32,537 nucleotides of DNA from a candidate division CPR2 bacterium GW2011_GWC2_39_10 (GCA_000993275.1 LBVV01000011.1:1-32537); one strand, 5' to 3'. Shown: positions 8,600 to 19,661, numbered from the stretch's first letter. The notes: generated by a model not told the origin, from the sequence alone. Made by a program: numbers and translations.

Positions 8600-9223
8600 T
8601 TATATTCTTAAGTCGCTACCCTTAATTATTTCGACTACAATGCCCTGAACTGCTAGGTTGTCTTTGACTATTATTGGTTTATGGTCCGGGTTGGTGGATT
8701 TGGGAAGTAGGACGGCATAACCGTTGCCAAGTTTATAAAACTTAACGGTTGCTTCGTCGCCTATAAGCGCCAAAACCTTATCTCCCGGGTTAGCTGTGCT
8801 TCTGGATTCTATAAGAAGCAGATCTCCGTCGTCAATGCCGGCTTCGTTCATGGAGTCGCCCTGAGCTTTAAGAAAAAAATATTTTTTAAACTGATTTTTG
8901 AAGAAATTTTTCTGCACCGGAATATATCCCTCTATGTTTGCTTCGGCAAACATAGGCATGCCGCAGGAAACAGAGCCAATTAACGGAATGTTTACGGTTT
9001 CTTCATCTTTGGTTTTCAATTTAACCCCCCTCTTTTTATTTTCTTCTATTTCTAAATAACCTTTCTCTTTTAAGGCCAATAAATACTGACGAACAGAATT
9101 GAAATATTTAATTCCCAGCCCCTCAGCAATTTGTTCGTAAGTAGGCATTTCATTAAACTGCCTTTCATAGTCTTTCATAAAGTTAAGGACGCGTTGTTGT
9201 TTTGAAGTAAGTAAATTTTTCAT
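8600..9223 (-). CDS. lexA: LexA repressor
   Basis: N-terminal wHTH (TSKQQRVLNFMKDYERQFNEMPTYEQIAEGLGI), cleavage region SVSCGMPMFAEANIEGYI, catalytic Ser GDSMNEAGIDDGD and Lys EATVKFYK. Confidence 0.93.
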   Translation of the reverse strand: MKNLLTSKQQRVLNFMKDYERQFNEMPTYEQIAEGLGIKYFNSVRQYLLALKEKGYLEIEENKKRGVKLKTKDEETVNIPLIGSVSCGMPMFAEANIEGYIPVQKNFFKNQFKKYFFLKAQGDSMNEAGIDDGDLLLIESRSTANPGDKVLALIGDEATVKFYKLGNGYAVLLPKSTNPDHKPIIVKDNLAVQGIVVEIIKGSDLRI

Positions 9224-10154: not shown

Positions 10155-12881
10155 ATGCAAAAAAGCAAACGTTTTTTAGTTTTTAAATACTTACTTTTAC
10201 TTATCTTGTTGTCCGTTGGCTTATTTTTAGTGGTTATTTTAGAACAAAAGATTGCTCTTGGGATTAATGTTAGTCAATGTAAAAAGGGAGACTTAAAAAG
10301 CTGTAATAATGCGGTTCAAATAGGAATTAAGAGGGACAGAAGCAGCGTCGATAATACAATAAACTTAAGAAGCGAGATTTTAGATAGGAAGCTTAAGGAA
10401 AATCCGCAAGAAATTTTAGACAATCAGTTGTTAGGCGAAAAGTTAAATTTAAAAAGTGAAAAAATGGAAAAAAAACAGACCGTAGAAGGCGATTTAGTTT
10501 TGGCTCATTTTGACGAGAAAATAGGAGAAAAAAGCCGAGAAGAGTATCACTTTATAGAAAAGGGTAAAAAGAAAAAATGGAACGTCTATTTCGGCAAGAA
10601 AGATAAAAAAGTATATGCCAGGCAAAATTTAAGACTGGAGGTTTTGACGTACGGCAATAACCTGGTATTGGAATCTACCGGCCAAATTGCACAGGCTGAG
10701 GATAGAAAAATTGGGCCAAACGGGGCTATAAATACTTTGGTGATCATGTTTAATTTTTCCAATAATACAAGTCAACCGTTTACAACGTCTACAATTAATC
10801 AAAATATTTTTGGTACCGGCAGTTCGGCAACAAAATATTTTGAGGAAGTGTCCTATAATAAAACCTCTGTAGTCGGAGACGTGAAAGGGTGGTACACCAT
10901 ACCGGATACCGATGCTTCATGCGATTATTTATCATGGGCATATGACGCTGATGATGCGGCCATAGCAGATGGCGTAAATGTCAATGCTTACGATAACTGG
11001 GTTTATGTTTTCCCCTATACCGCTAGTTGCGGATGGGCGGGATTGGCATATCTGGGAAGTTACGGAATGTGGAGCAACGGATACTCCGATGTTGAACTGT
11101 TTACGCATGAAATAGGCCACAATTACGGAGCAGAACATGCGTCCTATAGGGATTGTGGAACCAAAACAATAGATGTTTACTCTAGTTGTTCTACCAGCGA
11201 ATATGGTGATATCTATGACACTATGGGCTATTGGAATCCTTATCATTTTAATATTCCTCATAAGCTGGAGGTGGGCTGGCTTCCCAACGCGCGAATTCAA
11301 ACCGCAACGGTAAACGGAAATTATACTATCAGGCAACTCGAAAACGAAAGCAGCGCTTATCAGGCGGTTAAAATTTTAAAGGCTGATACGGGGGAATATT
11401 ATTATTTCGAATATAGGAAGGCTACCGGTTGGGATCTGGGTCTTCCGGCCGGAGTAACTAGAGGCTCTATTGCGCATGTTTATTCTGAATACGGCGGCAA
11501 CAGTTATCTTTTGGACATGACTCCCCAAGACGGTTGGTCCGACGTTGCCCTTAGCGACGGCAACTCATTTGCCGATACAATTAACAATATAACCGTAACT
11601 CAAGTAAGTCATGATGCGGAAACAGTAACATTAAATGTTCAGTTTGGGTCAACCCATACAATTACCGCCACCGCCGGTGCAAACGGCAGTATTTCGCCAA
11701 GCGGCAATGTTGAAGTAGGGCATAGTCAAGATATTATGTTTACAATTACTCCGAATAGCGGGTATAAAATTGATGACGTTTTAGTTGATGGATCATCTGC
11801 GGGCATAGTTGCTAACCATACATTCAACAACGTTGTGGCAACTCATACTATTTCCGCCTCTTTTGTTGAATTGTCAACGCCCTTAGATCATTTTTCCGGC
11901 AATATTTCCGGAACGAAAACGGCCGGACAGGCGTTTAATTTTACTTTATCGGCATATAATGCTTCGAATTCATTGATAAGTGATTACGGGGGTCTGGTGA
12001 ATTTTACGTCAAGCGACAGTTTAAGCACTTTGCCGTCAGATGATGGCGCGGGATGGACGAACGGCCAGAAAAACTTTTCGTTAACTTTAAGGACGGCAGG
12101 CGATGTGAGTTTTGAAGCTCGAGACATAGCTACAAATATTTTTTATGGAATTAACATAACTGTTCAGCATGGTAATTTATTCGATGTTCGAATAACCGCC
12201 TTAGATAACACATCCATTACGGCAGGCCAAGCGGTACGCTTTTCGGCAGTAGGCGTAGATAGTTTTTATAATGAAATACCGGAAGCGGCAATTACATGGG
12301 TTGTCGCCGATGCCGATGGAGTATTTAGAAAAACACAGAAAGGAACTCACTTTGTTTATGCCTGTAGCGGGGCGGTTTGCAGTTCGTTGCACTTAGGAGT
12401 AACAGTTAAACCGGACGTCATTAATACTATTTCAATTACTACAAATAAGGCACGTCTAATGGCGATTTCGGCTAACAAAATTATAATTACCATTAAAGCA
12501 ACAGACCAATATAACAATGGCATAGATAGCATCGCCTATAGCGTTACCGGCAAAAGGTCTCAGGATTCCTTGTTGGTGGGGACAAACACTTATGCGGGTA
12601 CAGAAACTACCAATGCTGCCGGCGAACTAGTGTTAAATTTAAAATCCACTTTGGTGGGAACAATTAGTCTATTGGCGCAAAATGGCTTGGTTTCCTCAAC
12701 TAAAACCATAAGTGTTGTAAAGGCGGGCGACATAAACGGTGACGGCAATATAAATGGGTTAGATGCATCGCTACTGGTTAATAGCTGGGAAAAGTTAACC
12801 AGTCTTATGTCTGATATAAATTGCGATTCAATTGTAAATGGCTTGGATGCCTCATTATTAGTAATTAATTGGAGTGGTTGA
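10155..12881 (+). CDS. Secreted metzincin-type metalloprotease (M11/gametolysin-like) with Ig-like domains and C-terminal dockerin
   Basis: N-terminal signal/TM. HEIGHNYGAEHAS (HExxHxxGxxH) and Met-turn YDTMGY. Bacterial-repeat and Ig-like segments. C-terminal DINGDGNINGLDASLLVNSW and DINCDSIVNGLDASLLVINW (two dockerin-type Ca loops). Confidence 0.88.
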   Translation: MQKSKRFLVFKYLLLLILLSVGLFLVVILEQKIALGINVSQCKKGDLKSCNNAVQIGIKRDRSSVDNTINLRSEILDRKLKENPQEILDNQLLGEKLNLKSEKMEKKQTVEGDLVLAHFDEKIGEKSREEYHFIEKGKKKKWNVYFGKKDKKVYARQNLRLEVLTYGNNLVLESTGQIAQAEDRKIGPNGAINTLVIMFNFSNNTSQPFTTSTINQNIFGTGSSATKYFEEVSYNKTSVVGDVKGWYTIPDTDASCDYLSWAYDADDAAIADGVNVNAYDNWVYVFPYTASCGWAGLAYLGSYGMWSNGYSDVELFTHEIGHNYGAEHASYRDCGTKTIDVYSSCSTSEYGDIYDTMGYWNPYHFNIPHKLEVGWLPNARIQTATVNGNYTIRQLENESSAYQAVKILKADTGEYYYFEYRKATGWDLGLPAGVTRGSIAHVYSEYGGNSYLLDMTPQDGWSDVALSDGNSFADTINNITVTQVSHDAETVTLNVQFGSTHTITATAGANGSISPSGNVEVGHSQDIMFTITPNSGYKIDDVLVDGSSAGIVANHTFNNVVATHTISASFVELSTPLDHFSGNISGTKTAGQAFNFTLSAYNASNSLISDYGGLVNFTSSDSLSTLPSDDGAGWTNGQKNFSLTLRTAGDVSFEARDIATNIFYGINITVQHGNLFDVRITALDNTSITAGQAVRFSAVGVDSFYNEIPEAAITWVVADADGVFRKTQKGTHFVYACSGAVCSSLHLGVTVKPDVINTISITTNKARLMAISANKIIITIKATDQYNNGIDSIAYSVTGKRSQDSLLVGTNTYAGTETTNAAGELVLNLKSTLVGTISLLAQNGLVSSTKTISVVKAGDINGDGNINGLDASLLVNSWEKLTSLMSDINCDSIVNGLDASLLVINWSG

Positions 12882-14410
12882 TGATAAAAAAGAAAATTAT
12901 TAGTATAATTGTTACATTTTTTGCGATGATGTCGTTATTTAACTTCGCTCCGGTTTATGCGGCAAATTCCAGTTTGATATTATCTCCCAGTGGAACTTAT
13001 GTTGTGGGCAATACTTTTAGCGTCGGTTTTGGGGTTCAGTCAGCCGTTTCAGTAGATACTATTAAGCTATGTCTTAACTATGATGCAAGTTTAATAACTT
13101 TAACTAGTAGCAGCTATATAAGACAGCCTATATTAGATTTACCCAATGGTGGTTGTATTTTTTATGCTGCTTTTAATCCTGGTTTTACAAGTGGAACTTT
13201 GGCCACCTTAAACTTTAGGGCTAATAGTGCTGGTAGTACAAATATAAGTATTACTGGTAGCTCCTTAGCTATTTCTGCCGGAGGGTATACAACCATAACC
13301 AATCTCGGGAGTGTTAATATTACGGTAAATAATCCTCCTGTTGTTACGGTTGCGCCTTCCAAGCCTTATGCGCCTGCAGTTTATTCATCGAGTCATCCGG
13401 ATGAAACGAAATGGTATAAGGAAAAAAACGTTAAATTAAGTTGGGCAAAAGCGGGCGGTGTAACTGATTTTAGTTATTCATGGGATTCAAATGCCGGTAC
13501 GGTACCTGACGAGGCTACAGAAGGATCTGCGGTAACCAAGGAATATCAGAGTGTTGCTGATGGCACTCATTATTTTCATATTAAAGCTAAAAATGGAGTA
13601 GGCTGGGGAACCGTCAAGCATTTTAAAGTAGGGACTGATAACGTTAACCCGGAGAACTTAAATATTATTTTTGAGGCTGGTGGCAATTCACTTGAGCCGC
13701 AAAACTTAGTAAAAGCAGAAGCAACTGACGCCTTATCAGGAATCGATCATTATGCAGTAAAAGTTGATAATGGAGAGTATATCGACCAAGCCATTCCATA
13801 CGTACTGCCATTTAAAGACACAAATAGTCATGATATTTCCGTTAAAGCATTTGATAAGGCCGGAAATTTTATTGAATCCAGTAAAAAGTTTTCGGCCAAA
13901 GAAGTTAAAATACCCCTTCCCGTTATTGGCAGTATTTCCTCTAATTTTACGGTTACAGCCGGAAATTCAACAAATATGACCAAAGAATATATCATTAAAG
14001 GTACGGGCACGGCAAATACTACCGTTAAAATTACTATAGACGGTAAAGAAAAAGGCGAGGCTAATGTAAATGACAAAGGCGTCTGGTCTATAACGGTAAA
14101 GGATTTGGGAGCCGGGGAGCATAATTTATCCGCTAAGACAAAGTTTGGTGATAAGAATAGTGAAGAAACAAGTAAAATCAAATTTCATATCAATGAGGAT
14201 GGGTCGCTAGTTCTTGGTGATAAAACACAAAAAAGCGGGTTTAATTATATTTATTTATATATATTGGGTGGCGTCATTGTCTCGGGGGCAGTTGGCTTTG
14301 TCGGTTATAAATTCTGGTTTAAAAAAAGAAAAGTTAAGAAGAATAAATATACAAATGATAATAAGGATGACACAGACATTAGTAATCTTGGTGATTTTTT
14401 AAAGCATTAG
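12881..14410 (+). CDS. Surface protein: signal peptide, cohesin-like domain, Ig-like domains, C-terminal TM anchor
   Basis: SSLILSPSGTYVVGNTFSVGFGVQSAVSVDTIKLCLNYDASLITL..SGTLATLNFRANSAGSTNISI resembles cohesin; C-terminal YIYLYILGGVIVSGAVGFVGYKFWFKKRKVKK. ATG 12881 overlaps the upstream TGA (TGATG). Confidence 0.75.
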   Translation: MIKKKIISIIVTFFAMMSLFNFAPVYAANSSLILSPSGTYVVGNTFSVGFGVQSAVSVDTIKLCLNYDASLITLTSSSYIRQPILDLPNGGCIFYAAFNPGFTSGTLATLNFRANSAGSTNISITGSSLAISAGGYTTITNLGSVNITVNNPPVVTVAPSKPYAPAVYSSSHPDETKWYKEKNVKLSWAKAGGVTDFSYSWDSNAGTVPDEATEGSAVTKEYQSVADGTHYFHIKAKNGVGWGTVKHFKVGTDNVNPENLNIIFEAGGNSLEPQNLVKAEATDALSGIDHYAVKVDNGEYIDQAIPYVLPFKDTNSHDISVKAFDKAGNFIESSKKFSAKEVKIPLPVIGSISSNFTVTAGNSTNMTKEYIIKGTGTANTTVKITIDGKEKGEANVNDKGVWSITVKDLGAGEHNLSAKTKFGDKNSEETSKIKFHINEDGSLVLGDKTQKSGFNYIYLYILGGVIVSGAVGFVGYKFWFKKRKVKKNKYTNDNKDDTDISNLGDFLKH

Positions 14411-18845: not shown

Positions 18846-19661
18846 TTAAACTTCTATTAAGTCTAAATACTTTTGGGCTGAAATTAAATTTTTATGCCCG
18901 CAAATTTTTGCCAGTTCATAAATTGGCATTCCATTTTTTAGCATATCAACACAAAAAGTATGTCTAAGATCAAAAAGGGAGGCTTTTTTAATGCCGGCCC
19001 TAATAAAATATCTGTTAATTTGGCGCCTTAAATTTCGAATATTTAAGGGCTTGCCGTTTAAGGATATAAAAAAAATTGAACTGTCTTTTTTGGGCCTAAT
19101 TGCCAAATATTTTAGAAGAGCATGAAGCGCCTCGTCTGTAATTTTAATCTCTCTATCAGGTAAGCTAATTTTTCCGACATTATCCTTAAGTTGAAACTCA
19201 TTAACTTTAAGGTCAATAATTTCGCCCACCTTAATGCCGGAATGTAAGAGTAAATTAATAATAGCCGAAGACCTAATATCTTTTTGGGTAATTTGCTTTA
19301 ATTTCGTTATCTCCCCTTTTGACAAAATGTAAGGCTTTTTATTATCTTTTTTAAGAGATTCTTTGGGGGACATACTGGGTATTATTTCGGAAGACAAAGA
19401 TTTTTTATTCAAAAATAATGCAAAATTATTAATAGCTGATGATTTGGAATCCAAGCTTTGTTGACTATATCCCTCACCCTTTAATTTTTGCATAAAAAGA
19501 TCAAATGATCGATCATTTAAGGTTGAGGTATCTTTATGGAGACCCCAAAAATTGCAAAATTGCCCTATAGAATTAATGTATGATTTTCGGGTTGATGCGG
19601 TTAAATTGGAGGAATTGATAAATTTAACATATTTATTATAAATATTTAACAGTGTATCCAT
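18846..19661 (-). CDS. Tyrosine recombinase / phage-integrase family
   Basis: SAM-like N-terminal domain; LLHSGIKVGEIIDL, LFDLRHTFCVDMLKNG, ICGHKNLISAQKYLDL (candidate nucleophile Tyr). Confidence 0.88.
   Translation of the reverse strand: MDTLLNIYNKYVKFINSSNLTASTRKSYINSIGQFCNFWGLHKDTSTLNDRSFDLFMQKLKGEGYSQQSLDSKSSAINNFALFLNKKSLSSEIIPSMSPKESLKKDNKKPYILSKGEITKLKQITQKDIRSSAIINLLLHSGIKVGEIIDLKVNEFQLKDNVGKISLPDREIKITDEALHALLKYLAIRPKKDSSIFFISLNGKPLNIRNLRRQINRYFIRAGIKKASLFDLRHTFCVDMLKNGMPIYELAKICGHKNLISAQKYLDLIEV

Follow-up and report, generated by a model that had tools for sequence, protein, structure and literature searches.

The 32,537-nt stretch analysed here (hereafter the window; GCA_000993275.1, LBVV01000011.1:1-32537) comes from candidate division CPR2 bacterium GW2011_GWC2_39_10, a Patescibacterium of the CPR2 clade within the ultra-small candidate phyla radiation. 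To our knowledge, how these ultra-small and mostly host-dependent bacteria hold enzymes and adhesins at their surface is poorly understood. In this study, we characterized two adjacent genes of the window, one coding for a metzincin metalloprotease that ends in a dockerin and the other for a membrane protein that carries a cohesin. A preliminary description of this DNA had placed the two open reading frames (ORF1 and ORF2) at 10155-12881 and 12881-14410, which proved right, and had proposed that the membrane cohesin holds the protease. The window's genome (G000) was compared with those of the same-genus bacterium CG2_30_37_16 (G001) and of the same-family candidate division CPR2 bacterium GW2011_GWC2_39_35 (G002). 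The features of the locus are as follows.

10155..12881, + strand: ORF1, secreted metzincin metalloprotease with a C-terminal dockerin, 908 residues (Pfam and NCBIfam matches; orthologues in G001, L026/L033, and G002, L027/L034)
11106..11138, + strand: zinc site HEIGHNYGAEH (HExxHxxGxxH), read from the sequence and conserved in G001 and G002
11217..11228 (about), + strand: Met-turn DTMG, read from the sequence; DxMG conserved in G001 and G002
12723..12878, + strand: type I dockerin with two calcium loops (PF00404 above cut-off; family comparison)
12729-12764, + strand: dockerin calcium loop 1, DINGDGNINGLD, read from the sequence
12813-12848, + strand: dockerin calcium loop 2, DINCDSIVNGLD, read from the sequence
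12752..13314, + strand: putative exchangeable specificity cassette comprising most of the dockerin, the junction, the signal peptide and the cohesin, diverged or non-alignable against G001
12881..14410, + strand: ORF2, membrane cohesin anchor protein with signal peptide, cohesin, immunoglobulin (Ig)-like modules, transmembrane helix and basic cytoplasmic tail
12881..12961, + strand: signal peptide MIKKKIISIIVTFFAMMSLFNFAPVYA (MIKKK...APVYA), read from the sequence and from alignment with homologues
12962..13339, + strand: cohesin domain (AlphaFold2 model, PDB matches, custom cohesin profile)
13361..14235, + strand: Ig-like stalk (PKD/fn3-like, OmpL47-like, Big_13), which constitutes the conserved anchor family
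14246..14317, + strand: C-terminal transmembrane helix, followed by the basic tail KKRKVKKNK, read from the sequence

The two genes overlap. As previously noted, ORF2 begins within the stop codon of ORF1 (TGATG), its ATG at 12881 sharing the A of the TGA, and a Shine-Dalgarno-like GGAG lies ~6 nt upstream of this start. The signal peptide, the cohesin-like domain and the C-terminal transmembrane helix with its basic tail described for ORF2 were all recovered, the first and the last two by reading the sequence rather than with a dedicated predictor. The expected Pfam cohesin match was obtained only in part. The window cohesin scores 19 bits against PF00963, under the cut-off of 24.1, but its G002 homologue, from a family-level relative, passes as a Pfam cohesin with 39 bits. 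An AlphaFold2 model of the window cohesin, built from an alignment of 39 N-terminal domains, reached a mean predicted local distance difference test score (pLDDT) of 91. When this model was searched against PDB structures, the first 22 matches were all cohesins, with TM-scores of ~0.55-0.67 by query length. The best match was the OlpC cohesin 4dh2_C (E-value 5.6e-9), 5nrm and 2jh2 were also retrieved, and further matches included cohesins of Acetivibrio ScaB, C. perfringens and Archaeoglobus fulgidus. A sequence search of ORF2 against the PDB returned no matches, the family profile gave mostly weak cohesin matches, and comparison of the window cohesin with plasmid records gave no match. A custom cohesin hidden Markov model (HMM) recognized the domain with an E-value of 4e-27, the window sequence itself being among the rows of the model. 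Because the fold model retrieves cohesins and the G002 homologue passes Pfam, the predicted fold makes the cohesin assignment firm despite the missed Pfam threshold.

ORF1 carries the combination that defines metzincins, namely the HExxHxxGxxH zinc site and the Met-turn; both had been reported and both are conserved in the two relatives. The protein starts with an N-terminal hydrophobic signal or anchor, followed by a pro-region, a catalytic domain (residues ~195-500), an InlB-B-like repeat (501-570), Ig-like modules (Big_1-like at 759-854) and the dockerin. Its assignment to peptidase family M11 stands less well: Peptidase_M11 (PF05548) is above its cut-off of 21 (33.4 bits, E-value 3e-8), but it is just one among several weak metzincin matches of the M11, M12 and M6 types. 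These include Reprolysin_5 (30 bits, E-value 7e-7), M12B-type models that also exceed their cut-offs, and the M6-type TIGR03296 (51.8 bits, E-value 1e-13), which falls below that model's own cut-off. The two dockerin-type calcium loops said to end ORF1 are present, and Dockerin_1 (PF00404) matches above its curated cut-off of 22.9 (31 bits, E-value 2.9e-7; 35.3 bits in a search of the own genome), which qualifies the module as a type I dockerin. Its recognition residues are near-symmetric, with GL at positions 10-11, then DASLLV, in both repeats.

The N-terminus of ORF1 bears on how the protease would be held. Its long hydrophobic stretch lacks a clear AxA cleavage site, a character shared by G001 and G002. 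Hence, the main alternative to anchoring of a released enzyme is that an N-terminal helix which is not cleaved keeps the protease itself in the membrane, in which case the contact between dockerin and cohesin would join two membrane proteins, for instance to orient or regulate the protease. We consider this unlikely, as signal peptidase could cut at an ALG/VLG past the hydrophobic stretch, and other cargo proteins with dockerins in this phylum carry signal peptides and appear to be exported.

The metzincin gene followed by the gene for the cohesin anchor is also found in G001 and G002. Across a sample of 380 genomes of the phylum, the metzincin family of the window comprises 17 copies in 16 genomes, and only three of the 17, all from the window's family, combine a dockerin with a cohesin in the neighbouring gene. 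Neither module was detected near the remaining 14 members, although some of these stretches stop at contig edges. With three of 17, the metzincin family as a general dockerin carrier was rejected. Of note, a paralogue of the window metzincin in the same genome (G000:C7:3299-4345; L163:2576-5140) has neither a dockerin nor a neighbouring cohesin, and ends in an Ig-like module.

Comparison with G001 revealed a sharp local divergence. The two proteases are ~82% identical (mostly 75-92% per 60-residue block, with one block at 57%) and the anchors 89-92% (75-97% per block). Between 12752 and 13314, DNA identity falls to ~35-55%, against 80-95% in both flanks, and BLASTN matches stop at 12751 and restart at 13315. 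This collapse is confined to the region from the first dockerin loop through the end of the cohesin. The gene spacing differs as well, the overlap in the window being replaced by a 170-bp gap in G001, and both versions are intact open frames. Among 115 cohesins (self counted), that of G001 ranks only 27th for the window cohesin, after 25 cohesins from other patescibacterial loci, and the reciprocal rank is 57. In control locus pairs whose anchors are similar, conservation of the cohesin usually equals or exceeds that of the anchor; the pair of window and G001, with 92% for the anchor and 36% for the cohesin, is an outlier. The two dockerins are each other's best match (47 bits), and their recognition positions differ, GL/GL in the window versus IL/IF in G001. 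Since identity collapses from dockerin to cohesin while both flanks are conserved, the alignments suggest that a matched dockerin-cohesin cassette was exchanged or replaced as a unit between close species.

The same drop in identity could also reflect gradual, accelerated co-diversification in place, or a local assembly problem. The mutual best match of the dockerins and the use of one species pair favour this explanation, which we regard as doubtful but deserving some weight. In-place diversification does not readily account for a window cohesin that is less like its same-locus counterpart than cohesins of other classes, for a spacing that changes from overlap to a 170-bp gap, or for abrupt edges that meet conserved DNA around two intact reading frames.

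Further data concern the interaction itself. Distances between dockerins and between the first downstream cohesins correlate when the anchor is controlled for (partial Mantel r 0.46, p 5e-4, n=36 loci), a supportive result in which common descent is poorly controlled for. Several relatives have both genes in the same frame, so that reading their native sequence past the stop codon yields a single chain of dockerin, signal peptide and cohesin; the window's own genes are in different frames. Prediction of such a read-through chain from locus L077, with 12 paired rows, gave a pLDDT of 91 and a predicted TM-score (pTM) of 0.82 for this relative's pair, run without a negative control. The dockerin mostly exceeded a pLDDT of 90 and the linker scored 64-76, and the pTM is well above the ~0.57 that, by our own estimate from the domain lengths, is expected for unoriented domains. 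Docking is thus predicted for a natural pair homologous to that of the window, and the two genes do co-occur in relatives.

These results also bear on the idea that both modules are fold relics, that is, a calcium-binding stability module and a generic beta-sandwich adhesin module that do not bind each other. Cohesin-like and dockerin-like modules are widespread outside cellulosomes, and the window cohesin is divergent. Nonetheless, conserved order and strand, linked divergence, correlated distances and a docked prediction for a homologous pair would be unexpected of unrelated modules, and we find this explanation very improbable.

The window's genome codes for three dockerins and contains four weak or strong cohesin matches. 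A second, paralogous pair of dockerin and transmembrane cohesin genes lies adjacent on contig C14; besides the window's own, cohesins are located at C14 and C9. Therefore, the "minimal one-enzyme surface complex" proposed earlier holds as to the pair of dockerin-bearing protease and cohesin, but this pair is not alone, being one of several modules. Dockerins in general can bind non-adjacent cohesins, and the window dockerin might then engage a cohesin of C14 or C9, or those of a partner cell, with adjacency reflecting shared regulation. We deem this quite improbable, given that the dockerin and the adjacent cohesin co-diverged as a block, that the recognition motif GL/GL differs from the LG/LA of the C14 dockerin and the IV/LI of the C9 dockerin, and that distances between neighbours correlate across the phylum.

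The third dockerin protein (IV/LI) is encoded at L023:5115-8655 (G000:C9 41114-44654). The Ig-like ORFs found 347 bp further on come in three overlapping pieces, the last with a transmembrane helix. They look like a single surface protein broken by frameshifts, through decay or assembly error, and were not recognized as cohesin. A conserved cluster at L024:4088-6637 (G000:C9) and L030:1503-4102 (G002:C4) consists of a surface protein, which has a ISISPLTFDLSANPGD-like N-domain and a C-terminal transmembrane helix, and of two small membrane cohesins downstream of it. These clusters have no adjoining dockerin gene, and such orphan cohesins may serve distant dockerins.

Altogether, the sequences, the fold, the conserved adjacency and the co-divergence lead us to propose, with a probability of about 0.8, that the two genes form a translationally coupled module consisting of a dockerin-tagged exported metzincin and its dedicated membrane cohesin receptor. 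ORF1 and ORF2 would be translated in a coupled manner and both products exported, the first as a metzincin with a type I dockerin and the second as a membrane protein whose Ig-like stalk presents one cohesin to the outside. The calcium-loaded dockerin would then bind the cohesin non-covalently and keep the protease, which presumably degrades proteins, at the cell surface. The complex may serve prey or host attachment or protein scavenging, as the preliminary description suggested. The matched pair would be insulated from any other pair in the cell, and would have been exchanged or replaced in one piece between species that are close relatives, probably by recombination. This agrees with the role first proposed for the membrane cohesin, an interaction to which the cohesin fold, the adjacency in relatives and the homologous docking prediction lend support. 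Several points weigh against this proposal. The protease has no unmistakable signal-peptidase site, and its N-terminus may act as a membrane anchor in its own right; the window cohesin is by itself under the Pfam cut-off; other cohesins of the genome might be bound by the window dockerin; and the docking model is of the L077 relative, which has a different recognition motif, and comes without a negative control, interface coordinates or predicted aligned error. As for the swap, it rests on a single species pair, and with dockerins that are still mutual best matches at 47 bits, the dockerin part may have diversified in place.

Beyond the window's genus and family, where the pair itself is adjacent, the general dockerin-cohesin arrangement was found throughout the phylum, in line with the conserved adjacency previously anticipated. 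Of the 380 genomes, 55 have the anchor family and 148 have dockerins. Dockerins are present in 38 of the 55 anchor-bearing genomes versus 110 of the 325 anchor-free ones (Fisher p 1e-6, uncorrected for genome relatedness). For the anchor-bearing genomes 31 dockerins were listed; 22 of these sit upstream of an anchor domain at a distance of 0.5-1.9 kb, in every case sharing its strand and preceding the cohesin. Our own HMMs detected, in 45 of the retrieved loci, a dockerin ORF followed by at least one cohesin ORF, and in 36 of these by two or more. Since the anchor served to recruit the loci, the counts apply to loci that carry it. Usually, the arrangement in the phylum is a cluster of one dockerin and two cohesin genes with Ig-like cargo. 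Pfam scans of cargo proteins from other families found Big_6, Big_13, fn3 or MG2 modules rather than enzymes; among the loci scanned, no family but the window's had a protease as cargo. Enzymes as cargo of all patescibacterial dockerins were thus rejected, the scans showing mainly Ig-like, fn3 and MG2 modules. The odds seem even that this arrangement represents a phylum-wide device for surface display, in which a dockerin-tagged exported protein is encoded directly upstream of at least one membrane cohesin. Its interface would be an insulated cassette recombining across two genes, the cargo being kept while the docking code changes, and the window would hold the protease version.

Five genomes of ~1 Mb (G183, G106, G082, G081 and G317) have 8-15 dockerin matches each, many for such a size. 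Giant dockerin proteins with about nine MG2 (macroglobulin-type) domains are encoded upstream of two cohesin genes at L079:1-4560 and L071:3-5381. At L038:2-6828, a single dockerin gene precedes five tandem cohesin-anchor genes, which is almost a scaffold divided among separate proteins.

The pair resembles C. thermocellum OlpC, a surface anchor with one cohesin, and the cellulosomal type I pairs in having a duplicated-loop dockerin on the enzyme and a cohesin fold on a surface protein, OlpC (4dh2) being the best structural match. Unlike cellulosomal pairs, it has protease cargo, a transmembrane-helix anchor and a single cohesin encoded beside its cargo. A cellulosome was rejected, as the pair has one cohesin and no scaffoldin, carbohydrate-binding module or glycosidase domain, and the genome has three dockerins. 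Closer in context are the non-cellulosomal modules of Archaeoglobus fulgidus (2xdh) and C. perfringens GH84C (2jh2, 2w1n), which act outside cellulose degradation and whose cohesins are structural matches, and those carried by ANME archaea (PMC9012536); the cargo and the phylum of the window pair are different. In Ruminococcus flavefaciens ScaC, the dockerin module varies within the species while the cohesin is conserved (PMC3197198). ScaC is thus similar in the variation of the dockerin of a cohesin/dockerin protein, whereas in the window the dockerin and the neighbouring cohesin differ together across two genes. Moreover, a dockerin-domain protein of a saccharibacterial epibiont, SEML1_0315, is reported to be essential and is envelope-associated, cohesin being unmentioned in that paper (PMC10633639). 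Its cargo differs from ours, but it is likewise a patescibacterial dockerin protein and indicates that dockerins can matter for fitness; the window module may bear on this protein. Our literature search found no description of this gene arrangement in Patescibacteria, although prior notice in older work on non-cellulosomal modules is possible, and no report of a dedicated pair of metzincin-dockerin and membrane cohesin or of pair swapping. A surface protease with its own exchangeable plug and socket would offer a concrete mechanism that can be tested. The two sister species, whose shared protease carries a different docking code in each, provide a natural experiment in which specificity is directly testable, and such loci are candidate sources of new orthogonal cohesin-dockerin pairs for protein engineering.

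The region flanking the two genes codes for a LexA repressor (8600-9223, - strand) and a tyrosine recombinase (18846-19661, - strand). This integrase recurs close to the corresponding locus of G001 (L026:10280-11095) and of G002 (L027:11847-12677).

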